DNA of 40,305 nt from IMG/VR virus record IMGVR_UViG_3300032236_000810, positions 1 through 40,305 of that record; one strand, 5' to 3'. This DNA is from a virus. Positions 17,805 to 30,342 of this stretch are shown here, piece by piece (position 1 is the stretch's first letter; each line of letters starts with the position of its first letter). Position numbers and translations under genes: made by a program. Below the pieces are notes generated by a model. The model was not told where the DNA came from, ran no database searches, and was given only the letters and a program-made list of their open reading frames with translations.

Positions 17805-17816
17805 TATTTATAAATA
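17805..17816. promoter_or_regulatory. overlapping divergent T4 late promoters
   Basis: TATAAATA reads on the plus strand at 17809-17816 and on the minus strand at 17812-17805, sharing four bases. The plus copy serves the lysis cassette (start 17856). The minus copy serves the coiled-coil membrane protein (start 17765). Recognition by the gp55-type late sigma factor is known for T4; here it is inferred. Confidence 0.75.
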
Positions 17817-17855: not shown

Positions 17856-18107
17856 ATGAATATTGTAGTACAACAGGCGATTAATTTATTAGCATCATTA
17901 TTGTTAGGTTCCGATACATTTACACGTATTTTGGGTGTAGTAAATCGTTGGGCAGATAAAAAGATATCTGGTGCAGAAAAACGTGCTGGTGTTTTAGATG
18001 AATTTGAAATCATCGGATTAAATATTACTAAATCTCTTGCTAATCTAGGTCTAGAGCTAGCAGTTGCATATTTGAAAAATGAAGTAAAAACTGATAAGAG
18101 TGCATAA
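17856..18107 (+). CDS. small late protein in lysis cassette, 83 aa
   Basis: Starts MNIVVQQAINLLASLLLGSD, with a moderately hydrophobic N-terminal helix and a second helix GLNITKSLANLGLELAVAYL. Clear AGGA site eight bases upstream. It is read with the holin-like gene two bases further on. Amphipathic rather than truly transmembrane. It may assist the holin or be an antiholin, but it is not recognised. Confidence 0.6.
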   Translation: MNIVVQQAINLLASLLLGSDTFTRILGVVNRWADKKISGAEKRAGVLDEFEIIGLNITKSLANLGLELAVAYLKNEVKTDKSA

Positions 18108-18109
18108 CA

Positions 18110-18427
18110 ATGAATGTGGTATTAAGATATATTGTAGATCGTCTAAAGGAACCTTCAACATGGAGAGGTCTTATTTGGATTATTACTGCCGTTGGAATTG
18201 TTTTAAGTGAAGATCAGAAACAATCAATTGCAACAGCAGGTATGACTCTTGCAGGTCTTATTGGTGTATTTACTAGTGAGTATAATAAACCAACAGAAGA
18301 ACAAGTCCAAGAAGTCGTTGAAAAACAAGAAGCCAAAACTGAAAATGTATTATCAACATCAAGAGTAGCAAGAAAGGTGAAAAATGCTAAACGTAATAAA
18401 GATCCTGATAATTTCTTTAATGATTAG
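18110..18427 (+). CDS. holin-like small membrane protein, 105 aa
   Basis: The stretch STWRGLIWIITAVGIVLS, then a short polar turn EDQKQS and a second hydrophobic helix IATAGMTLAGLIGVFTS, give two membrane segments. A long charged C-terminal tail follows. This is a frequent layout of phage holins, which time lysis by opening the inner membrane. The Rz1-like gene overlapping its end supports a lysis role. No endolysin gene is adjacent. Confidence 0.7.
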   Translation: MNVVLRYIVDRLKEPSTWRGLIWIITAVGIVLSEDQKQSIATAGMTLAGLIGVFTSEYNKPTEEQVQEVVEKQEAKTENVLSTSRVARKVKNAKRNKDPDNFFND

Positions 18428-18635
18428 TGCGTGTTCTTCACCACCTAAAGAAAAGATAGTTTATATTCCTACACCAATATCAAGACCTACAATGCAACCT
18501 CTTCCAAAGATAACTGGTCAAGAGGTTGATTGTTTATCTGATGATACTAAAATGAAACTCTTAAAACGAGATGATATTATGAAGAATTATATCACAGATT
18601 TAGAAGTTATTATAGATTCTACTAAGAAGAACTAA
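18384..18635 (+). CDS. Rz1-like outer-membrane spanin lipoprotein, 83 aa
   Basis: Begins MLNVIKILIISLMISACSS, a lipoprotein signal with lipobox ISAC and acylated C17. A proline-containing stretch and the helix CLSDDTKMKLLKRDDIMKNY follow, as in Rz1-type spanins. These disrupt the outer membrane at the end of lysis. The gene starts inside the holin-like gene in another frame (44-base overlap), a classic arrangement for lysis genes, and has AAAGG upstream. An inner-membrane Rz partner is not obvious next to it. Confidence 0.72.
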   Translation: MLNVIKILIISLMISACSSPPKEKIVYIPTPISRPTMQPLPKITGQEVDCLSDDTKMKLLKRDDIMKNYITDLEVIIDSTKKN

Positions 18636-18817
18636 AACTTACAATGAGCAATACCTGTAGTTCTCATTATAGTAAACTGAACGTTTGATATATTAGGATC
18701 TCTATAAACTTGATTGGTATCTTGGATACCTGGACGAACAGAACAATCGTGTAATGCACAAGATGATAATAAGGAACTGATGAGTAATATCACAGTTCCT
18801 TTTTTATTTTTAACCAA
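18632..18817 (-). CDS. putative small lipoprotein, 61 aa, TTG start
   Basis: From TTG 18817 the product would start MVKNKKGTVILLISSLLSSC, a positively charged n-region, hydrophobic core and lipobox LSSC with acylated C20. A 41-residue tail with three further cysteines or histidines follows. AAAGG lies five bases ahead of the TTG. It converges with the lysis cassette and overlaps the spanin stop by four bases. A plus-strand terminator hairpin lies within its signal-peptide codons. Function unknown; it may act at the envelope. Confidence 0.45.
   Translation of the reverse strand: MVKNKKGTVILLISSLLSSCALHDCSVRPGIQDTNQVYRDPNISNVQFTIMRTTGIAHCKF
18772..18810 (+). terminator. rho-independent terminator for the lysis cassette
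   Basis: AGGAACTG (18772-18779) pairs with CAGTTCCT (18793-18800) around a 13-base loop, followed at once by a T-rich run to 18810. It is placed to end plus-strand lysis transcripts and lies within the minus-strand lipoprotein frame. Confidence 0.7.
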
Positions 18818-19010
18818 CCGGACCTTTTCTTGACCCCATTCCCATAAGAATAGGATTCTTCTTACGTCTTGGAAGATGAACGCCTGGTTCACCACCTTTA
18901 CCCCCGCTACCAGCAATTGCACCACCACCAACTACATTGGTTGGTCCGGCAGAGGCAATTGCTCCCCCACCCATTCCATCTTCTATAACAAACTGTTTAA
19001 AAGTTTTCAT
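18810..19010 (-). CDS. small Gly-rich candidate internal head protein with capsid-targeting peptide, 66 aa
   Basis: Begins MKTFKQFVIE, almost the same as the T4 internal-protein capsid-targeting sequence MKTYQEFIAE. The Glu is at position 10 and a V-x-E cleavage signal suits the gp21 prohead protease. The rest is a low-complexity Gly/Ala region (VVGGGAIAGSGGKGG) and a basic end. Start set at ATG 19010, coupled as TAATG with the upstream stop; the in-frame ATG at 19022 would hide the peptide and overlaps the ribosome-binding site. It is likely packaged in the head and possibly ejected with the DNA. Confidence 0.65.
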   Translation of the reverse strand: MKTFKQFVIEDGMGGGAIASAGPTNVVGGGAIAGSGGKGGEPGVHLPRRKKNPILMGMGSRKGPVG

Positions 19011-19408
19011 TAACAATTCCATTTTCTCAGTGATAGTGCCTTTCTTGTTGGTCTACCCTTTTCATCCTTCATAGGACCAGGCATACCACTCATTCTATCA
19101 CAAAATGATTTTCTGCGTTTTGCTGGCTTACTATCTGGATCTAACTTTGATGGTTTAGTAGTAACTGCCATACTCAATTTAGAACCTGGATTTTCTCTAC
19201 GATAGGATGCAATACCTTTCTTATTAAGACCGCCCTCTGGGTTCTTTCCTTCTTTACGTTGCCATGCAGCAGATTTCTCATCTAATTGAGTTTCTTCTGG
19301 GACGCAATTTGGAACTGTCTTACCACCTTTCTTTTTCATACCAACGGCATTATATCCTTTCCAACAAGGGTTCTTCATTTCATTTACAAACTGTTTAAAA
19401 CCTTTCAT
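19010..19408 (-). CDS. DUF6321-like basic protein with capsid-targeting peptide, 132 aa
   Basis: Starts MKGFKQFVNE, matching the capsid-targeting pattern with Glu at position 10. Residues about 11-35 (NPCWKGYNAVGMKKKGGK) are a small cysteine-containing module. From about 41 on, LDEKSAAWQRKEGKNPEG and GIASYRRENPGSKL belong to a conserved basic domain I know as DUF6321, ending RKWNC. A QLDE sits exactly at the junction of the two parts, giving a second possible gp21 cut. Strongly basic, as expected for a DNA-associated internal protein. Confidence 0.72.
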   Translation of the reverse strand: MKGFKQFVNEMKNPCWKGYNAVGMKKKGGKTVPNCVPEETQLDEKSAAWQRKEGKNPEGGLNKKGIASYRRENPGSKLSMAVTTKPSKLDPDSKPAKRRKSFCDRMSGMPGPMKDEKGRPTRKALSLRKWNC

Positions 19409-19791
19409 ATTTGTTCCAGTATTTCCAGTACTTTATTGTCTGTTGGGATATCTTTAGTAATAAGATCACTTCCATTAATACCTTCTAATATATCAGGAAG
19501 AAGATTTAAGTATGATAAGAATGTCTTCAATATATCATAATCTCTTTCATCCATCTTATAGAACAATATTCTCGCTGTTGGTATAGAACCAAAAACATTA
19601 TTCAATAAGATAATATGATTAAGTATCAACCTTTCTTTTAAAATTTTAGTTGATTTATATCTACGAAACAATCTTTTTAAATATTTGATTCGTTTTAAAT
19701 CACCTTCAAATTCAGATATAATACAATGAGGTGCCATGTAACACTTCATTGTATATATCAGAAAATTATCTTCAGTTAAGTTATTAAACAT
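19405..19791 (-). CDS. conserved T4-like phage protein, 128 aa
   Basis: Begins MFNNLTEDNFLIYTMKCYM and continues DLKRIKYLKRLFRRYK, LKERLILNHIILLNNVFG and TARILFYKMDERDYDILKTFL. This sequence order is one I recognise from many T4-like phages (DUF7207-like), always without a known role. All-helical and basic in the first half. No ribosome-binding site is exposed: an 18-base perfect palindrome lies directly ahead of the ATG. Confidence 0.7.
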   Translation of the reverse strand: MFNNLTEDNFLIYTMKCYMAPHCIISEFEGDLKRIKYLKRLFRRYKSTKILKERLILNHIILLNNVFGSIPTARILFYKMDERDYDILKTFLSYLNLLPDILEGINGSDLITKDIPTDNKVLEILEQI

Positions 19792-19799
19792 AATAAAAG

Positions 19800-19817
19800 A
19801 GGGGAGATATCTCCCCT
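19800..19817 (-). terminator. perfect 18-base palindrome; terminator or start-site hairpin
   Basis: AGGGGAGATATCTCCCCT is a perfect inverted repeat. On the minus strand TCTTTTATT follows, so it looks like a weak intrinsic terminator after the 202-aa gene. Eight bases after it comes the ATG of the next gene, so the hairpin may also control that gene's translation. Its AGGGGAG arm would be the only possible ribosome-binding site. Confidence 0.6.
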
Positions 19818-19821
19818 AATA

Positions 19822-20430
19822 TTATAGTCCTGGAACTATACGACCAGCACTAGTATTACCTGATGATGTGTTGGTAGCAGAACAATTAGATAGACAAACT
19901 AATGTTTCTTTCAAATAACGAATTGTTCCATCATTATTTACTTTCTTTACAACACGATTCCAACCTTGATTGATATTCCCAATATTCGCAACAGCACCAG
20001 ATGAAACGGTGATATTTGATGATCTTGTTGCAGTAATCAAAATAGTATCTTGATTATATGTGTTTGCTGGCGCAGATGGCCAATTGATTGCAGTATCAAA
20101 TTCAATTATAGTGCCAGCTGGAGTAGTGTTAAATGTATTACTAGTTAAAGTAACAACATTTCCACTAATAGATTTAACTGTGTTATTTGATGCAAAGAAA
20201 CCAGGATATCCATTACCAGCAAGTCCTGATGCAAAATAAACGTATTGACCAACAACTACACCAGCATTAGCAACATTATTTTGATTACCGTCATTATATG
20301 ATAATATAATAGTATTGCTTGGAGGTGTTGTTATTGTATATGTTGTAAAACGAACAACTTCTCTAACTTGTCTTTCATAACTCCACTTTGGTTTAGTGGC
20401 TGGAGCGTCTGTATTTCCCCATGATGGCAT
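19822..20430 (-). CDS. probable virion structural protein, 202 aa
   Basis: Begins MPSWGNTDAPATKPKW, a start I have seen on structural proteins of T4-like marine phages. The rest is beta-rich, with Thr, Asn, Gly and Ser repeats typical of virion surface proteins. No catalytic motif. A strong AGGAG site and a near-consensus late promoter 40 bases upstream indicate late, high expression. The exact virion location is unknown. Confidence 0.65.
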   Translation of the reverse strand: MPSWGNTDAPATKPKWSYERQVREVVRFTTYTITTPPSNTIILSYNDGNQNNVANAGVVVGQYVYFASGLAGNGYPGFFASNNTVKSISGNVVTLTSNTFNTTPAGTIIEFDTAINWPSAPANTYNQDTILITATRSSNITVSSGAVANIGNINQGWNRVVKKVNNDGTIRYLKETLVCLSNCSATNTSSGNTSAGRIVPGL

Positions 20431-20471
20431 TTTATTTCTCCTGTTTTAACCTTTGGTTATATTGTATTATC

Positions 20472-20479
20472 TATTTATC
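20472..20479 (-). promoter_or_regulatory. near-consensus T4 late promoter
   Basis: The minus strand reads GATAAATA (20479-20472), seven of eight matches to TATAAATA, about 42 bases before the structural gene start at 20430. Confidence 0.55.
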
Positions 20480-20481
20480 TA

Positions 20482-21516
20482 TTATTTCTTTTTGGTTTTT
20501 GGTACTGGTTCATTACCTTGAGGTTGACCAGGACGTGCTCTCATTGAAGGATCAATTTCAACATCATCTCTGTCTTGACCTGTCATAGTTTTTCCACCTG
20601 TTAATATAGCAGATGCTTTGGGTTTGTTTTCACCCATATGAGATGCATCATCGGGTTTGATAAACTTTGGTTTCTTTCCCAATGGTTGCTTGGTATCTTT
20701 ATCTTCTGCATCCCAAGCATACATATCCTCAGACATTCTTATGTTCTGATAGATTTCTTTGATCCTACGGAAAGTTTCACTGACTTTTTTCTTTTTCATT
20801 TTAGTGTTTAGTGCAGGGTTGTTAGGACCATCTTCTTGACTATTTTCCATTCCAACAGTTTGTGTGGGAGCAGAAGTATCTTGATACGTATCTTCTAATT
20901 GAAGTGATTCTTTTAGTTTAGATACAAACTCATAATCATCCATAGTAAGAACACCTTTCTTACGAATGTTAATAAGTTTCTCTACAACTTTATGCAAATC
21001 AGCATCGGACTTAATATCTTCTCTTGCCAACTCTAACATTCTTATAAGAAGAGGAATGTCAAAAGTTACAGTATCTTTTTTATCTGTTGTCTCATGAATA
21101 CCACCATGTGCAGGTGTTATGATATTATGTTTATTATAACTTTTTTTCAACTGTTTCTGTCTAATCCTAGTTGGTGAAGAAACATGACTACTTACAGAAG
21201 AACCGACATGATGAATATCACCAGTAGATCCAACTTGTTCACGCATAGGATCATTGAATGTTGGCAATTTTCCACCATGCATATGTTGTTGTACCCAACG
21301 TTGGAAAGCACCTGTCTTAGAATGTGCTACTTTCTGTTGCATACTAACATGCTTAGGGTTTAACCCTCTACGGCGAAGAAAAGCATTCAAAAAGTTAGTT
21401 TCATTGATATTTGCCTTTGCTGACCAAGGATCATTGGGGTCAGTCCCAAAGGTAGTTTTTGGTGCTACCTCTGGTTTGACGATATCTTTTACTATCTTAG
21501 AAACTTTCTTAGTCAT
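20482..21516 (-). CDS. phage protein of unknown function, 344 aa
   Basis: Start set at ATG 21516 (MTKKVSKIVKDIVKPE...), eight bases inside the end of the upstream gene and behind an AGGA site. The longer in-frame start at 21555 overlaps that gene by 46 bases. Visible segments are NFLNAFLRRRGLNPKHVSMQ (about 40-60), a helical middle DIPLLIRMLELAREDIKSD, and a lysine- and proline-rich tail ending PKTKKK. It lies between the repeat protein and the structural protein in the late unit, so a virion role is possible. Not recognised. Confidence 0.6.
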   Translation of the reverse strand: MTKKVSKIVKDIVKPEVAPKTTFGTDPNDPWSAKANINETNFLNAFLRRRGLNPKHVSMQQKVAHSKTGAFQRWVQQHMHGGKLPTFNDPMREQVGSTGDIHHVGSSVSSHVSSPTRIRQKQLKKSYNKHNIITPAHGGIHETTDKKDTVTFDIPLLIRMLELAREDIKSDADLHKVVEKLINIRKKGVLTMDDYEFVSKLKESLQLEDTYQDTSAPTQTVGMENSQEDGPNNPALNTKMKKKKVSETFRRIKEIYQNIRMSEDMYAWDAEDKDTKQPLGKKPKFIKPDDASHMGENKPKASAILTGGKTMTGQDRDDVEIDPSMRARPGQPQGNEPVPKTKKK

Positions 21517-23323
21517 ATTTTCCAGTTCCTTTACCAAATGGAGTATTGATGTCACCTTTTAATTTTGACTTGTATTTCAAGAAGTTATTTGGTTTGTTAC
21601 CAGTAGTACGACCAGTTAAATCATCTGTAGTAATAGTCGGAGCTCCACCTTCATCAGTTCCACCAGCAGACCCCATAACTGCTTCACTCTTAACACCAAG
21701 TTTATCTTTGATACGTTTCATAGCAGAATGAGCTGCTTGTTTTACACGAGCAATAGGAGTAGATGCTTCTGGAGCAAAAGTACTATTCAATGAATAATCA
21801 GAGGTTGGACCAGCTGATTCATTAAGTTCATGACGGTGCATATCTTCCCAGTGGGCAGCAGCGTGTTTACGATCACTAACAGAGAACATCTTGTGCCAAG
21901 GAGTACCATCACCATGATGTTTAGCATAAGATTGTGCGGCACGATCAGCATGATACTGCCACAGTTTCTTTGCTTTCTCTGGATGATAAGTACCTTTCTT
22001 CATCTTCTTACTCAAGTTCTTAACGATAGGTTGATGACTTGAATAGTGTAAGTGATGATCGTTATCAGCATGAAGAACAAGTTCCTTAGCTGCATGTGGC
22101 ATATCACCATAGTTTTCTTTAATGGTTTCTTCTCCTATACCTAAAATTTTTTTATTTTTATTTTTATTCTCTCTATCCTTTATGGTTTTGTGGGCTCGGT
22201 CAAGTCCAGATTCTGTATTCTTTTCATTACGATCTAAAATATCATTAAGTTCTTTAGCATGAGGATGGTTAGAATTATACCTATATGATGTTTGATGCAA
22301 ATAATTTGAAGCTTTATCTTGATATGATTTCAAAGTTTTAGTAGATAATTCATCAATCTGTTCTACATCTTCTTTGTTCAATCTGGCATTTGCTTTCTTG
22401 ATACCAGCACTTCTTTTAGCAAACTTTTCAGTATGTTTCATAAATTGTTTGGTGTCTGCGGCAGATTTACTACGTTGAGCAGCATTACCTGCAAGACCAA
22501 AAGATTTGATAGCAGAGATTGTTGATTTCTTTACATAGTTACCAAGAGTTTTCTTTGACAACTCATCCAACTGTGCATATTCTTCTGTCTGCATGAAGTC
22601 AAGAACATCTTCAAGAAGATCAACTTCTTCTTTTGCCATCTTAGTAGCAGTAGCATACATTACTTCTTTAGCACGATCACCATAACGGTCTTTGAAACCT
22701 TTTACATTCTTCTTCATGCTCTTAACATAATGTTCTTTCTCTTTGGACTCACCAGAAGTAAGAGTGCGTTCATCTAACACTTCATCTTCCTTAATCTGTT
22801 CAACTTCTTCACCTTTCAACTTATGCTTCAGTTTTTGTAACATTGATGGATGAAATGTTCCGGTCTTTTTCTTTATTTTATCATCAGCAAGTTCAGCGCC
22901 AAGTAAGCGATTCAAATTTGCTTTCATTGGATTTTTATCATATTGCTTATCATATTCCTTATATGCCTTTTTTCTATAAGCATCCAATTTACCAACAGAT
23001 AATTCATCAATCTGTTCTGAATCTTCTTTACGAAGTTTCTTAAAATCTGCACCAGTAAGTTTACCCTTTGGTTCAGCAACATCAAGTTTACTTTGAGCAC
23101 CTTTCAAACCTTCATCCAATTCTTCTTCTTTGTCTTTTGCAGTTTTCTTGATCTTATCTTTATCAGTGTTGATCTTAGCAGCAGGAATCGGTTTCGCTTT
23201 CATACGAGCAAGTTCACGATCTGCCTTTGCAACATCATCATCGTCATCGTAAGATTCTTCAACGTTAATGATCTTTTCTACTTCTTCTGCAACAGAATCC
23301 ATTTTCAGTTTATTATAGAACAT
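21509..23323 (-). CDS. repeat-containing candidate prohead-processed polyprotein, 604 aa
   Basis: A lysine- and glutamate-rich helical protein with a recurrent module beginning EQIDELS.KTL..Y, at about residues 103 (SEQIDELSVGKLDAY), 250 (AQLDELSKKTLGNY) and 321 (EQIDELSTKTLKSY). Sites of the gp21 type, [LI]xE, fall at module edges: LDE71, IDE107, IKE179, LDE185, LDE254, IDE325, IKE403 and LNE502. Residues 404-502 form a His-rich segment (LHADNDHHLHYSSH...). Start at ATG 23323 has GGAG six bases upstream. Read with the two enzyme-like genes upstream. It may be cut into several internal peptides, or act as scaffold. Confidence 0.6.
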   Translation of the reverse strand: MFYNKLKMDSVAEEVEKIINVEESYDDDDDVAKADRELARMKAKPIPAAKINTDKDKIKKTAKDKEEELDEGLKGAQSKLDVAEPKGKLTGADFKKLRKEDSEQIDELSVGKLDAYRKKAYKEYDKQYDKNPMKANLNRLLGAELADDKIKKKTGTFHPSMLQKLKHKLKGEEVEQIKEDEVLDERTLTSGESKEKEHYVKSMKKNVKGFKDRYGDRAKEVMYATATKMAKEEVDLLEDVLDFMQTEEYAQLDELSKKTLGNYVKKSTISAIKSFGLAGNAAQRSKSAADTKQFMKHTEKFAKRSAGIKKANARLNKEDVEQIDELSTKTLKSYQDKASNYLHQTSYRYNSNHPHAKELNDILDRNEKNTESGLDRAHKTIKDRENKNKNKKILGIGEETIKENYGDMPHAAKELVLHADNDHHLHYSSHQPIVKNLSKKMKKGTYHPEKAKKLWQYHADRAAQSYAKHHGDGTPWHKMFSVSDRKHAAAHWEDMHRHELNESAGPTSDYSLNSTFAPEASTPIARVKQAAHSAMKRIKDKLGVKSEAVMGSAGGTDEGGAPTITTDDLTGRTTGNKPNNFLKYKSKLKGDINTPFGKGTGKYD

Positions 23324-23324
23324 T

Positions 23325-25043
23325 TTATTCTCCGTACTTTTTTCTTTTTTTAGGTTGTTTAATTTCTACACCAGATAGCTTATTAACATTGTCTTGTTGG
23401 GTTTGCATAGGTTCTTTATTACAAGAACCACCAAGAACTCCACCAACACCCATTTCAGTACCACCTGGTTCATCAATGGATTCTACAAAATTTTTAAATG
23501 TTTTTCTACCTTCTTGATATATTCCAATATTGATACCACCTGGATATGCAGTACCAGATTGTCTCGTATCATACTCTGGACTTGTTCCTGATGGTTTTGG
23601 GAACCTTTCACTACTATTTAACCATTTTGACTTTTTCGCCTTTTCAGATTCCTTGTCTTTATTAAAGTTAGGAACTTTAGGTTTTGCAGTTATATTAATA
23701 TGAGGTTTAGATTCTTCACTATATGTCATATTAGTATATGTCTTAGTTCTCTTTGGAGCATTGAACTTGATATCATCTTGCCCCTTCATACTTGGACTGT
23801 TATCAGGAACAACATCACTAGTAGTGTCTGCTGTTTCTCCACCAAGTTTCTTTAACTTTACACTTTCAACAAATATGTTCTTATTACGATAGATGTTATT
23901 CTTATTAACACCATCAAAGAATGCATTAGTTATCTTATATGCTGATGTGATATCTTCTTCAATCATATCAACAGAACCACTGTTGTCAATACGAAGGAAA
24001 TTATCAAACTCTTCACTGTAAATATCTTTGTTGTGTTGTGCCTGTAACCATTTATCATTTCTTACTGACTCAACCATCATACGAGATAGTTTAGTGTTAC
24101 GTTCTTGACTTGATTCATTTGTTGTGTCAACAAAGATCATCATTGTTGAGTATCCAAGTTCTTCAAGTTCTTCTTTTATATAAGAAATGTGTTCATTATC
24201 ATCAGCAGGACCATTGATGATCAAAGGAGAACGACTACGGATTGCTTCTCTACGTAAGTCATGTGTCTTCTCAGACAACTTCTTCTTATCAGCAAGGTAT
24301 GTATATGCTTGAACTACATTAAGTTCAATTGCTCTTGATTCTGAGATTGATTCACGGATAACAACATCCTTTCCAGAACCAGGTCCACCAGTAACAAAGA
24401 TTGCCTTATACATACCACGAGTAAAGTTCTCATGCAATCCCATACCATGACGGACATCATGCATTAATTCTCTTGCATGTTCATCTTTAACATGGGAAGG
24501 AACACCTTGACGGAATGAAGAGAAATCTTTATTCTTAGCATGTTGACGCATCTTGGTACCAGACATACCTTCTTCACCTTCTGCATCTGGATCACGGTGT
24601 CCGGCAGAACGAACCTCAATTTTCTTGAAGTTGAAGTGTCCATGTCTTCCTTTTACACCGTTATACTTGTGTAATAGGTCATGCATTTCTTTTACACGGT
24701 CAGAACCAGCAACAACAACTAAATGATCATGACCTTTATCATGTAATTTAGATGCGTGATGTAAAATAGTAGGTTCACTACTAGAAGAAGAACTGAAGTT
24801 AGTACCTGGTGAATATCTTCTTAGATGTTTTACTTTTTGTTCTGGTGATAGAGGGTTCTTATTGGCATTCTGAGAATGAGATACAACAACAGAATGCGGC
24901 ATCTTTTCTCTGTCAGATATTTCTCTTACTTTATTGATAAGTTTGAGGTGGCCAGTGGTAGGAGGATTGTATCTCCCGAATGCCATGACAACAGGTTTAC
25001 TGGTCTTATTTGTTTCTTCTACTAACTCTAAAAAACTTTTCAT
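23325..25043 (-). CDS. NadR-like nucleotidyltransferase plus P-loop kinase with capsid-targeting peptide, 572 aa
   Basis: Residues 1-10 (MKSFLELVEE) fit the capsid-targeting pattern. Residues 17-200 form a cytidylyltransferase/NMNAT-type domain: FGRYNPPTTGH (22-32) is the GxxxP..GH signature and SGTKMR (161-166) the ISxTxxR-like motif. Residues 213-380 form a P-loop kinase with Walker A GGPGSGKD (219-226) and VDTTNESSQERN, resembling zeta-toxin or ribosylnicotinamide kinases. The C-terminal 190 residues are low complexity, with a second copy of the tag-like KTFKNFVES near 508-516 and a Gly-rich stretch. An NAD-salvage role is the simplest reading, but the substrates are not proven. Coupled to the upstream gene by ATGA. 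Confidence 0.75.
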   Translation of the reverse strand: MKSFLELVEETNKTSKPVVMAFGRYNPPTTGHLKLINKVREISDREKMPHSVVVSHSQNANKNPLSPEQKVKHLRRYSPGTNFSSSSSSEPTILHHASKLHDKGHDHLVVVAGSDRVKEMHDLLHKYNGVKGRHGHFNFKKIEVRSAGHRDPDAEGEEGMSGTKMRQHAKNKDFSSFRQGVPSHVKDEHARELMHDVRHGMGLHENFTRGMYKAIFVTGGPGSGKDVVIRESISESRAIELNVVQAYTYLADKKKLSEKTHDLRREAIRSRSPLIINGPADDNEHISYIKEELEELGYSTMMIFVDTTNESSQERNTKLSRMMVESVRNDKWLQAQHNKDIYSEEFDNFLRIDNSGSVDMIEEDITSAYKITNAFFDGVNKNNIYRNKNIFVESVKLKKLGGETADTTSDVVPDNSPSMKGQDDIKFNAPKRTKTYTNMTYSEESKPHINITAKPKVPNFNKDKESEKAKKSKWLNSSERFPKPSGTSPEYDTRQSGTAYPGGINIGIYQEGRKTFKNFVESIDEPGGTEMGVGGVLGGSCNKEPMQTQQDNVNKLSGVEIKQPKKRKKYGE

Positions 25044-26209
25044 TTCCTGACTTTTAATAGGTTGGCTTTACTGAATTCTTCTCTGTTGACTAACTTTGTT
25101 GGTTCGCCAGCATGATTAACTACAAATCCTTCTGGATCGGTCTTCTTACCATCTATGTCATGTTCTAATCCACCACCATGTTGATTCAAATTCTTTACTA
25201 AGACATCCTTTGCTTGTTGTAAATGGTGATGCATTCTCAACAAGTTTTCATAATGTTGTTTATTATTTTCAATATGATCAGAATGTGCTTGTCCTTCATT
25301 CTGTCTTCTTTGCTGAGTAGCAGGTGTTTTCAACTTACTTGCTGCTTTATTATACTTATCAACAATGTGTTGTTGTAGACCTTTAGCAGAAGGTGTTTCA
25401 CCTGTTCTTACTGTCTGATTTATATAGGTTGCTAAATGATTAGCATCTCCTTGGTGTGGAGATGTGGCATTATACATGTCTTTATTTTGATCATGAATCT
25501 TCTTTGCTTGATCCATATGAGATTGAAACTCACTCTGATCTTCTGGACTGTAATGTACATTCTTAGTATCATACTCAGCAGATTGATGCCATACATCTGG
25601 ATGTTGTCCAAAGTTATGTACATCAGGATGTGGATCTGCTCTCATAGAGTTCAAATCTTTTCCTTGATATTGTGTATGAACCACAACACCCATCTTTGCT
25701 TTTCTTATCTTATCTGCCTTATCGCCTCTGGCAGTATAAGTGATAGTATTAGGAGTAAATGATACACCACGTTTAGTTTCTTTCTTATCATCACCGGAGA
25801 ACATCATATCTCCTTGATATACACCTTGTTTTGGTGAAACTTTAGGAAGATGGTTCAGTGCTGAATGAAGTTTCTCAACTAATCCTGGTGCATGTCCATG
25901 ATTTTTAAGAATATCTTCGTGTGTATAGTTTATCTTAGGGTTCTTATTAAAAGCAGATTTAGAAGCAACAAAGAACTTACCAGTTTCTGGATGATGACCA
26001 AAAACAATAGATGGAGAACCATCATACTTCATAGTAAGTGCTGAACTGTGGCCACCACTCTTAATATGACTGTGTGCTTGATTTAACGCATTCTGAGCAT
26101 GTTCAAAACCAGCACTACCATGTAGAAGAGGTCTATCCTCTGCATGGTGAATGTGCTTCAGTTTTGCTTCTTCAACGTCTTCTTTTAGAAAATATGAGAA
26201 AGATTTCAT
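25040..26209 (-). CDS. polynucleotide-ligase-like protein with capsid-targeting peptide (DUF6267-like), 389 aa
   Basis: Residues 1-10 (MKSFSYFLKE) match the capsid-targeting pattern with L-K-E as the cut site. TMKYDGSPSIVFG (59-71) has the KxDG nucleotide-attachment motif of ATP-dependent ligases and capping enzymes. GVYQGDMMF (129-137) fits motif III, and DPEGFVV (358-364) with TKLV (371-374) fit motifs IV and V. I recall a phage family of this kind called DUF6267. The middle is His/Gln-rich. Length and motif order fit an RNA or DNA ligase fold, but activity is not proven. Transcribed from the late promoter at 26262-26255. Confidence 0.7.
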   Translation of the reverse strand: MKSFSYFLKEDVEEAKLKHIHHAEDRPLLHGSAGFEHAQNALNQAHSHIKSGGHSSALTMKYDGSPSIVFGHHPETGKFFVASKSAFNKNPKINYTHEDILKNHGHAPGLVEKLHSALNHLPKVSPKQGVYQGDMMFSGDDKKETKRGVSFTPNTITYTARGDKADKIRKAKMGVVVHTQYQGKDLNSMRADPHPDVHNFGQHPDVWHQSAEYDTKNVHYSPEDQSEFQSHMDQAKKIHDQNKDMYNATSPHQGDANHLATYINQTVRTGETPSAKGLQQHIVDKYNKAASKLKTPATQQRRQNEGQAHSDHIENNKQHYENLLRMHHHLQQAKDVLVKNLNQHGGGLEHDIDGKKTDPEGFVVNHAGEPTKLVNREEFSKANLLKVRK

Positions 26210-26254: not shown

Positions 26255-26262
26255 TATTTATA
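26255..26262 (-). promoter_or_regulatory. T4 late promoter
   Basis: Exact TATAAATA on the minus strand, about 46 bases before the start of the ligase-like gene at 26209 and at the very end of the epimerase gene. It makes the downstream unit (ligase-like to small internal proteins) late. Confidence 0.75.
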
Positions 26263-29121: not shown

Positions 29122-29618
29122 ATCTTTTCCCCAACGACCATAAACGAATCATTTAAATCCTTTCCTGATGAAAATATTTTATCATAATCATTATCATACA
29201 TATAATCCTTAATCATATCTGATGTAAATGAATGAAGATGTTTTCTGTTATTCCAAGGTCTCCAATATTCTTGGTCATAATGTGGTAGATAAAGGAACAA
29301 AACACCACCACTCTTTAGTTTGGATGTCCAATAATCAAGTGCATCAACCCAATATGGAAGATGTTCCAAACAATGACTAGAGTAAATGTAGTCCAGATTA
29401 TCATACTCAAAATCATAGGCATCATTCCCATCATCAAAGTTCAAATCAACACCAATTGCACCAGGAAAGCACCATTCCTGTCTATTACATCCAATATCAA
29501 TACCATATCCTTTACAAAAGTGTTTTGCAAAAGGTATTGCAAATTGTGATGCATTACCTTCCTCTTGGAATTTTGGATACCATCTACCTTTATACTTTAT
29601 TGTTTCAATATTACTCAT
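29118..29618 (-). CDS. SAM-dependent methyltransferase-like protein, 166 aa
   Basis: Start set at ATG 29618 (MSNIETIKYKGRWYP), eight bases inside the end of the upstream gene; the longer frame runs far into it. KGYGIDIGCNRQEW is a shortened motif I for SAM binding. DYIYSSHCLEHLPYWVDALD carries the S..LEH motif of class I methyltransferases, and LKSGGVLFLYLPH follows. It lies in the sugar cluster, so sugar O- or N-methylation is likely, but the acceptor is unknown. Confidence 0.75.
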   Translation of the reverse strand: MSNIETIKYKGRWYPKFQEEGNASQFAIPFAKHFCKGYGIDIGCNRQEWCFPGAIGVDLNFDDGNDAYDFEYDNLDYIYSSHCLEHLPYWVDALDYWTSKLKSGGVLFLYLPHYDQEYWRPWNNRKHLHSFTSDMIKDYMYDNDYDKIFSSGKDLNDSFMVVGEKI

Positions 29619-30342
29619 AGTTGAATTCTTTAATGTAGTGTAAATGACTATTTCTATTTTTATAATAGTGTAAGTCAAATGAATATTCAATCGGTTTACC
29701 ATCCCAATTATATAGATCATCGTCCCAAAGGATATGAGTTTCTTTATTCATCATATCAGACAATATTCCTATTCCTGTGAATGTTGTTATGAATGGGTTT
29801 GGATTATATTTGATCAACGAAAGATTATACAACAAATGATGAGAATAGTCAAGATAATAAAATCGATCTGTATTGAATTTATCATATCCTCTTATATGAT
29901 TAGATAATCTTCTCTCATCAACATCAGGTGCATCTTTTGGACTCCACCTATCTGCAACAAGAATACTATCTTCATGCTCACGTATATCATTATACCAAGG
30001 TATATTTAAATTGTAATCAACATCTAAATCAAAATCAATATTATAATTACTTCTTACAAAATTATAACATCTCCTAACTGCGAATGGTTCATCACCATTA
30101 TTTTGATCACCACCAGTGTCATCTAATACAATATATTCTTTAACTATTGGTTGTTCATCCATAAAATGAACATCGGAAAAGATACCCTGATATAATAAAA
30201 GATCTTTTATTCCATTGAATCTTTTAAGACGATCACATATACCAAATGATATTGGACCATACTTTTCATGCAATCCAGATAATGTAGGAAGACAATGGAT
30301 AAAATCTCCTAAGTTGTGTATTCTTGGTGAATATACCTTCAT
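29611..30342 (-). CDS. GT9/heptosyltransferase-like protein, 243 aa
   Basis: MKVYSPRIHNLGDFIHCLPTLSGL resembles the N-terminal GDxxxxxP loop of ADP-heptose-type glycosyltransferases (family 9). The C-terminal half lacks the usual second domain and ends in an aromatic, tyrosine- and asparagine-rich tail, so the protein may be a short or diverged member. The setting between two other sugar genes supports a glycosyltransferase. Confidence 0.55.
   Translation of the reverse strand: MKVYSPRIHNLGDFIHCLPTLSGLHEKYGPISFGICDRLKRFNGIKDLLLYQGIFSDVHFMDEQPIVKEYIVLDDTGGDQNNGDEPFAVRRCYNFVRSNYNIDFDLDVDYNLNIPWYNDIREHEDSILVADRWSPKDAPDVDERRLSNHIRGYDKFNTDRFYYLDYSHHLLYNLSLIKYNPNPFITTFTGIGILSDMMNKETHILWDDDLYNWDGKPIEYSFDLHYYKNRNSHLHYIKEFNYE

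Follow-up and report, generated by a model that had tools for sequence, protein, structure and literature searches.

Why should neighbouring viral genes of unlike length and content open with one shared ten-residue pattern? We addressed this question in IMGVR_UViG_3300032236_000810, a 40,305-base virus contig of a T4-like phage from an aquatic, uncultured source (hereafter, over its whole length, the window). Four minus-strand genes of the window encode proteins of 389, 572, 132 and 66 residues that share this N-terminal tag (Table 1). Our analysis indicates, with a probability of about 0.86, that the four genes form a late head-cargo operon, and that their tags are capsid-targeting sequences (CTS) of the T4 type; the products would be cleaved by a gp21-type protease, kept in the head and probably ejected. 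The capsid-targeting reading is supported by the register and residues of the T4 signal, by gp21 and by gp23 sites in relatives, by a conserved late promoter and by published mass spectrometry of virions.

The four N-termini match the T4 capsid-targeting sequence

The earlier note had reported four N-terminal peptides with glutamate at residue 10 and leucine or valine at residue 8, and all of them were present on the minus strand as described: residue 10 is Glu in 4/4, and residue 8 is Leu in the 389-residue protein and Val in the 572-, 132- and 66-residue proteins. Taking T4 as the control, IPII and IPIII start MKTYQEFIAE|A, and IPI starts MKTFKEF with ITE|A further on; a search of papers for the peptide MKTYQEFIAE found none. 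In internal head proteins of this class the propeptide spans about 10-19 residues and terminates in Glu at a hydrophobic-x-E site. Ten N-terminal residues are enough to package IPIII, residues 4 and 7 serving in targeting and residues 8 and 10 in processing (PMC9026906). The positions conserved in the tags, 4, 7, 8 and 10, are these same four determinants, and both register and residues agree with T4, as the note had proposed in calling the peptides a T4-type CTS. The tag system is that of T4; the novelty lies in aquatic phages putting it on conserved enzymes.

In the 66-residue protein the tag requires an inner ATG at 19010, the first ATG of the open reading frame giving MELL-MKTF... instead. 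A GGA Shine-Dalgarno-like core lies immediately upstream of the inner ATG (ATGGAATTGTTAATG), and relatives read VELLMKTF or VELLMKSF at this point; the inner ATG is the likely start. The 572-residue protein also has a CTS-like stretch near its C-terminus, which extends as RKTFKNFVE, and the virion protein S-SCSM1_93 terminates in a similar KKRTFKEFLEYIE.

We propose that each protein bears a ten-residue tag of the form Mxx-F4-xx-F/L7-L/V8-x-E10, whose residues 4 and 7 would recruit it into the core during prohead core assembly. A gp21-type protease would then cut after Glu10 and release the mature protein, which would stay in the head alongside the DNA and probably enter the host at infection. 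Among the 16 records of relatives searched, fragments included, 13 contained gp21 (PF03420) and 14 contained gp23 (PF07068). The gp23 proteins of relatives mostly carry a hydrophobic-x-Glu site before the conserved domain (e.g. FLSE, LME, LNE), such as AFLSE|AAPTN in Melnitz and QALME|TSDTG in G009.

Table 1. Positions of the tagged genes, their N-terminal tags and associated elements in the window.
Feature	Position	Strand	Evidence
DUF6267 protein, 389 residues	25040..26209	-	Pfam PF19782, E=7e-102; invariant residues; AlphaFold2 pLDDT 91
CTS MKSFSYFLKE of the 389-residue protein	26180..26209	-	Pattern in 100/124 family members
572-residue protein	23325..25043	-	PF01467, E=5e-8; phrog_3041, phrog_2071; fold matches
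CTS MKSFLELVEE of the 572-residue protein	25014..25043	-	CTS in 70/108 family members; virion-detected orthologues
DUF6321 protein, 132 residues, CTS-bearing	19010..19408	-	PF19846, E=4e-23
CTS MKGFKQFVNE of the 132-residue protein	19379..19408	-	N-terminus of the open reading frame
66-residue basic CTS-bearing protein	18810..19010	-	Inner ATG start
CTS MKTFKQFVIE of the 66-residue protein	18981..19010	-	T4 IPI begins MKTFKEF
CTS-like KTFKNFVE within the 572-residue protein, near the C-terminus	23481..23504	-	K-x-F-x-x-F in family consensus
SAGPTNVVG, matching the mature gp23 start of relatives (LSE|VNSAGPTNVAGG)	18927..18953	-	Motif scan, profile comparison
NPILMGMGSRKGP, matching DPILISLVRRALP of relatives' gp23	18819..18857	-	Profile comparison
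Putative T4-type late promoter TATAAATA	26255..26262	-	53 nt upstream of the first CTS gene (DUF6267 start)

The tag recurs on unrelated proteins in relatives

To survey relatives, the CTS was written as the ten-residue pattern Mxx[FY]xx[FYLIVM][LIVMFY]xE, and the sample comprised 156 loci fetched around the two large proteins together with HTVC008M, Melnitz and the window. The earlier note had proposed seeking the same N-terminal pattern beside enzymes in other genomes; it occurred at 278 of 2,096 gene starts against about 3.8 expected (internal ATGs, 5/7,748), which is not a genome-wide rate because two of the families guided the choice of loci. The strict form, in relatives with whole or near-whole records, lay almost exclusively within the tagged cluster. 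The tag was present in 100 of 124 members of the DUF6267 family, 70 of 108 members of the nucleotidylyltransferase family to which the 572-residue protein belongs, and 34 of 60 members of the DUF6321 family. The tagged DUF6267 proteins have Phe4 (98/100), Phe or Tyr at 7 (100/100) and Leu or Ile at 8 (100/100); the pattern itself fixes Glu10 and constrains 4, 7 and 8, but does not dictate the narrower preference for Phe4, Phe7 and Leu8.

Once stripped of residues 1-10, the tagged proteins formed 21 linkage groups, one large group being chained via shared C-terminal modules and a few single-member ones looking like chance; across about 20 groups, unrelated mature domains have only the tag in common. 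Of the loci, 86 had more than one tagged gene, and in every one of these the tagged genes shared a strand. The tag was found on orthologues from Stenotrophomonas phage DLP_6 to cyanophages: on the enzyme also in Syn9 gp184, S-SSM4 and C48C1, on DUF6267 in C48C1 and DLP_6, and on neither in P-HM2. These results contradict an origin of the four like N-termini by recent duplication of one gene start, or by chance in an AT-rich genome, to which we assign a likelihood close to nil. A G+C content of 33% and the Lys/Phe-rich peptides speak for such an origin; set against it are the match rates at internal ATGs and at genes given above, the free variation of residues 2, 3, 5, 6 and 9 while 4, 7, 8 and 10 stay fixed, and the breadth of phages that share the tag.

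Published gene starts may hide further tags, as in phage C48C1, where the annotated cytidyltransferase start misses an upstream in-frame CTS-like stretch, KNFSQYLLEE... (L246, 2983-3043). One family, beginning MKKFKGIKEF... (window 29611-30342), had fitted an initial, less strict pattern and was set aside as chance, 0 of its 23 members being in the CTS register. Proteins adjoining DUF6267 were noted in L089 (3833-4807), Melnitz (L002, 12203-13288) and L001 (8768-9826), and are tagged in L089 and Melnitz. Those of Melnitz and HTVC008M bear a PD-(D/E)XK-like TPKTD...SLK signature and are possibly packaged nucleases.

Tagged orthologues are present in cyanophage virions

Published particle proteomics contained four enzymes that are kin to the 572-residue protein and lie in the same neighbourhood, by profile match in three (E = 1e-66 or better) and by annotation and sequence in the fourth. 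In S-SM1 particles, the putative citidylyltransferase T4-GC190 was detected (Sullivan et al. 2010, PMC3037559); SSM1_190, recorded as GC190, begins MKKFSAFLNE|A. Virion detection was likewise published for S-SCSM1 ORF91 (PMC9602691), which begins MKSFLQFLKE|A, for S-CREM2 ORF154 (PMC10665884, Table 3), which begins MKNFSSFLTE|A, and for S-SZBM1_140 (PMC9146016, Table 1), whose MRFRQFIIE|A is one residue shorter. The CTS was thus present in 4/4 virion-detected orthologues, and we found no paper linking it to these cytidylyltransferases. S-SCSM1 ORF90, which lies upstream of the cytidylyltransferase there, is also a virion protein.

Since relatives of the tagged enzyme occur in purified cyanophage particles, these phages probably pack enzymes with their DNA. 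The earlier note had taken all four proteins as head cargo; this is well supported for the 572-residue protein, through tagged orthologues in virions of four cyanophages, and for the other three packaging is what their tags would predict. In S-SZBM1, the neighbouring DUF6267 protein is untagged and was not detected in virions, whereas its tagged neighbour was, a single case consistent with tag-dependent packaging.

A tag that leads proteins into the prohead core could also serve core or scaffold helpers that mostly leave before DNA packaging, with little or nothing delivered to the host. T4 core proteins are indeed mostly expelled after gp21 cleavage (PMC9026906), and several proteins of the cassette are Lys/Ala-rich and scaffold-like. 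However, CTS-bearing cytidylyltransferases are still detectable in the finished virions of four phages, and the CTS proteins IPI-III of T4 are retained at 360-370 copies per mature head (PMC9026906). We regard the helper role as unlikely, though the most credible of the alternatives to head cargo.

Phage clamps are bound by short hydrophobic-acidic peptides. The N-terminal peptide might accordingly be a docking motif for another partner, such as the sliding clamp or the machinery of late transcription; the proteins detected in virions would then be abundant late products carried over in preparations, as the authors of proteomic studies allow. This explanation is markedly less probable still, given the strict N-terminal position, the invariant Glu10, the residue-for-residue fit to T4 CTS genetics, the independent detection in four studies and the S-SZBM1 pair.

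Several observations weigh against packaging as head cargo. Residue 7 of the 572-residue protein is Leu, which is non-aromatic. DUF6267 orthologues of several cyanophages lack the CTS, so that cargo status varies across the family, and several untagged cassette proteins were detected in cyanophage virions, so that the tag is not the sole route into particles. Two virion studies raise the possibility of carriage, or of carry-over in CsCl preparations, and leave the cargo question open. The window is a 40-kb fragment devoid of head genes and hence gives no view of this phage's gp21 and gp23.

A nucleotidylyltransferase of the NMNAT/cytidylyltransferase type is recurrent in cyanophage particle proteomics, its cargo status undecided there, and the CTS on 4/4 orthologues offers a mechanism. 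If head cargo is the right reading, conserved enzymes would reach the host together with the DNA of abundant aquatic T4-like phages. With the tag, undescribed head cargo could also be read from genomes; the roughly 20 groups found here include proteins that resemble nucleases, nucleotidases, kinases and ligases.

A putative late promoter at a conserved distance precedes the tagged genes

The earlier note had placed the unit behind a late promoter, and this claim held: TATAAATA lies 53 nucleotides upstream of the DUF6267 start, and about half of the 123 orthologues have it at the same distance. An exact TATAAATA occurred within 120 nucleotides upstream in 62 of the 123, mostly at 50-54 nucleotides, compared to 87 of 1,476 other genes (6%); among random 120-mers the share was 1.4%. 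The window as a whole has 5 copies of the octamer where 7.5 would be expected, so that abundance alone is no evidence; it is the conserved position in relatives that counts. These results support the prediction that the tagged unit is expressed late from this promoter. Two overlapping exact copies of TATAAATA on opposite strands, between divergent genes at 17805-17816, are a possible bidirectional late promoter.

The 66-residue protein resembles the N-terminal arm of gp23

The 66-residue protein is laid out as CTS, SAGPTNVVG and NPILMxM..RKxP, and terminates NPILMGMGSRKGPVG. The mature gp23 arm of relatives reads SAGPTNVAGG...DPILISLVRRALP and starts just after the cleavage site (LSE|VNSAGPTNVAGGVQNFDPILISLVRRALP). 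The motif [AGT]PTN[VLF]xG was restricted to gp23 and the 66-residue family in about a million open-frame residues of the loci, with 0.3 expected. Profile comparison of this family with gp23 aligned both elements (E = 3.7e-6, probability 87%), from few sequences. When all proteins of a genome were ranked by plain local alignment, gp23 came top for just one of three small proteins; the resemblance is carried by the profile comparison and by cyanophage pairs, not by that ranking.

Cyanophages imitate a different arm. S-CREM2 gp160 matched its own gp23 over 24 residues, with 0 of 2,000 shuffles as good, and S-SCSM1_97 and S-SM1_197 resemble it in this gp23-like arm; S-CREM2 gp160 and S-SCSM1_97 are virion proteins of the same cassette. 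S-SM1_197 is closer to the gp23 of other cyanophages than to its own, so that the match is between clades and not strictly within a genome. A gp23-arm-like stretch was also noted in cassette proteins of L194, L090, L123, L104 and L108. RefSeq labels some of the arm-bearing small proteins 'major head protein', which shows that annotators had already seen the likeness to gp23; we found no proposal in the literature for the function of these proteins. Tentatively, and at somewhat under even odds, we suggest that one product of the cargo operon is a small copy of the gp23 N-terminal arm, and that proteins of this kind, by imitating the arm, might attach to the capsid lattice from within once gp21 has cut, there decorating the interior or anchoring cargo.

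Predicted activities of the cargo proteins

The earlier note had called the two large proteins enzyme-like, which stood for the 572-residue protein by PF01467 and a kinase domain and for the 389-residue protein by motif only. The former comprises an HxGH nucleotidylyltransferase (NMNAT/cytidylyltransferase-like, about residues 18-206), a P-loop kinase (about 209-380) and a disordered tail. Its PF01467 match is above the Pfam cut-off, NPPT-x-GH is conserved, and its fold matches are ATP sulfurylase, adenylate kinases and polynucleotide kinases.

In DUF6267, the motifs KxDG (K61, D63, G64) and EGxV (E360, G361, V363) and the residue K372 are invariant in 42 sequences, and the confident AlphaFold2 model leaves the first ten residues, the CTS, at low confidence (disordered). 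These motifs, taken alone, suggest that the protein may be a ligase-like covalent nucleotidyltransferase. Its fold matches outside its own family included tRNA, RNA-editing and DNA ligases, all weak and none significant (E >= 0.03); a PDB fold search gave nothing significant, a search against solved-structure profiles found nothing, and direct profile comparison with T4 Rnl2 gave no match. Papers searched for DUF6267, DUF6321 and DUF7207 yielded none. DUF6267 and the nucleotidylyltransferase appear fused in some phage proteins (phrog_455 spans both, as does an S-PM2 protein), a link between their functions. Speculatively, the cargo might act in the chemistry of nucleic acids or of NAD(+)/nucleotides at the very start of infection.

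The neighbouring 604-residue charged protein (21509-23323, minus strand) contains repeats EQIDELSxxTLxxYxxKA, each with a gp21-type IDE|L-like site, and may for that reason be cut into peptides like the T4 core proteins.

Gene neighbourhood

Around the tagged genes the order is DUF6267, the nucleotidylyltransferase, two charged Lys/Arg-rich proteins, a 202-residue protein, DUF7207, DNA primase, thymidylate synthase and ribonucleotide reductase; the 202-residue protein occupies the spot where relatives have S-layer or tail-fibre genes. This order is broadly shared with Kyanoviridae, among them Pelagibacter phage HTVC008M, Methylophilales phage Melnitz and cyanophages, and we regard the phage as T4-like and Kyanoviridae-related. 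Searched at the nucleotide level, the region matched no named phage. At 17856-18635, three small plus-strand open reading frames stand amid an otherwise minus-strand region, one holin-like and one small lipoprotein-like (spanin-like), and may be a lysis cassette.

Comparison with known systems

The closest parallel is with T4 IPI, IPII and IPIII, which share with the window the ten-residue register, an aromatic residue 4, hydrophobic residues 7 and 8 and Glu10, as well as the use of one tag before unrelated mature parts; IPI even reads MKTFKEF vs MKTFKQF here. In contrast, the T4 proteins are small, basic and phage-variable, IPI being a restriction inhibitor, whereas here long proteins that are enzyme-like and widely conserved bear the tag as well. 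T4 Alt is likewise a large head-core enzyme, an ADP-ribosyltransferase that is packaged, ejected and N-terminally cut by gp21 (PMC9026906). Its propeptide differs in having 7 residues. To our knowledge, Alt has no relation to the tagged proteins of the window. The ejection proteins of the giant phages phiKZ and SPN3US, likened here by review description alone, are also head cargo trimmed by a prohead protease, but these phages have far larger virions and many more cargo proteins. The 572-residue protein shares its arrangement of nucleotidylyltransferase and P-loop kinase with ATP sulfurylase/APS kinase. With the cyanophage cytidylyltransferase/NMNAT-like virion protein (T4-GC190) it has in common an orthologous nucleotidylyltransferase domain, the neighbourhood and the CTS, although the four proteins detected in cyanophage virions have no counterpart of the window protein's P-loop kinase domain.

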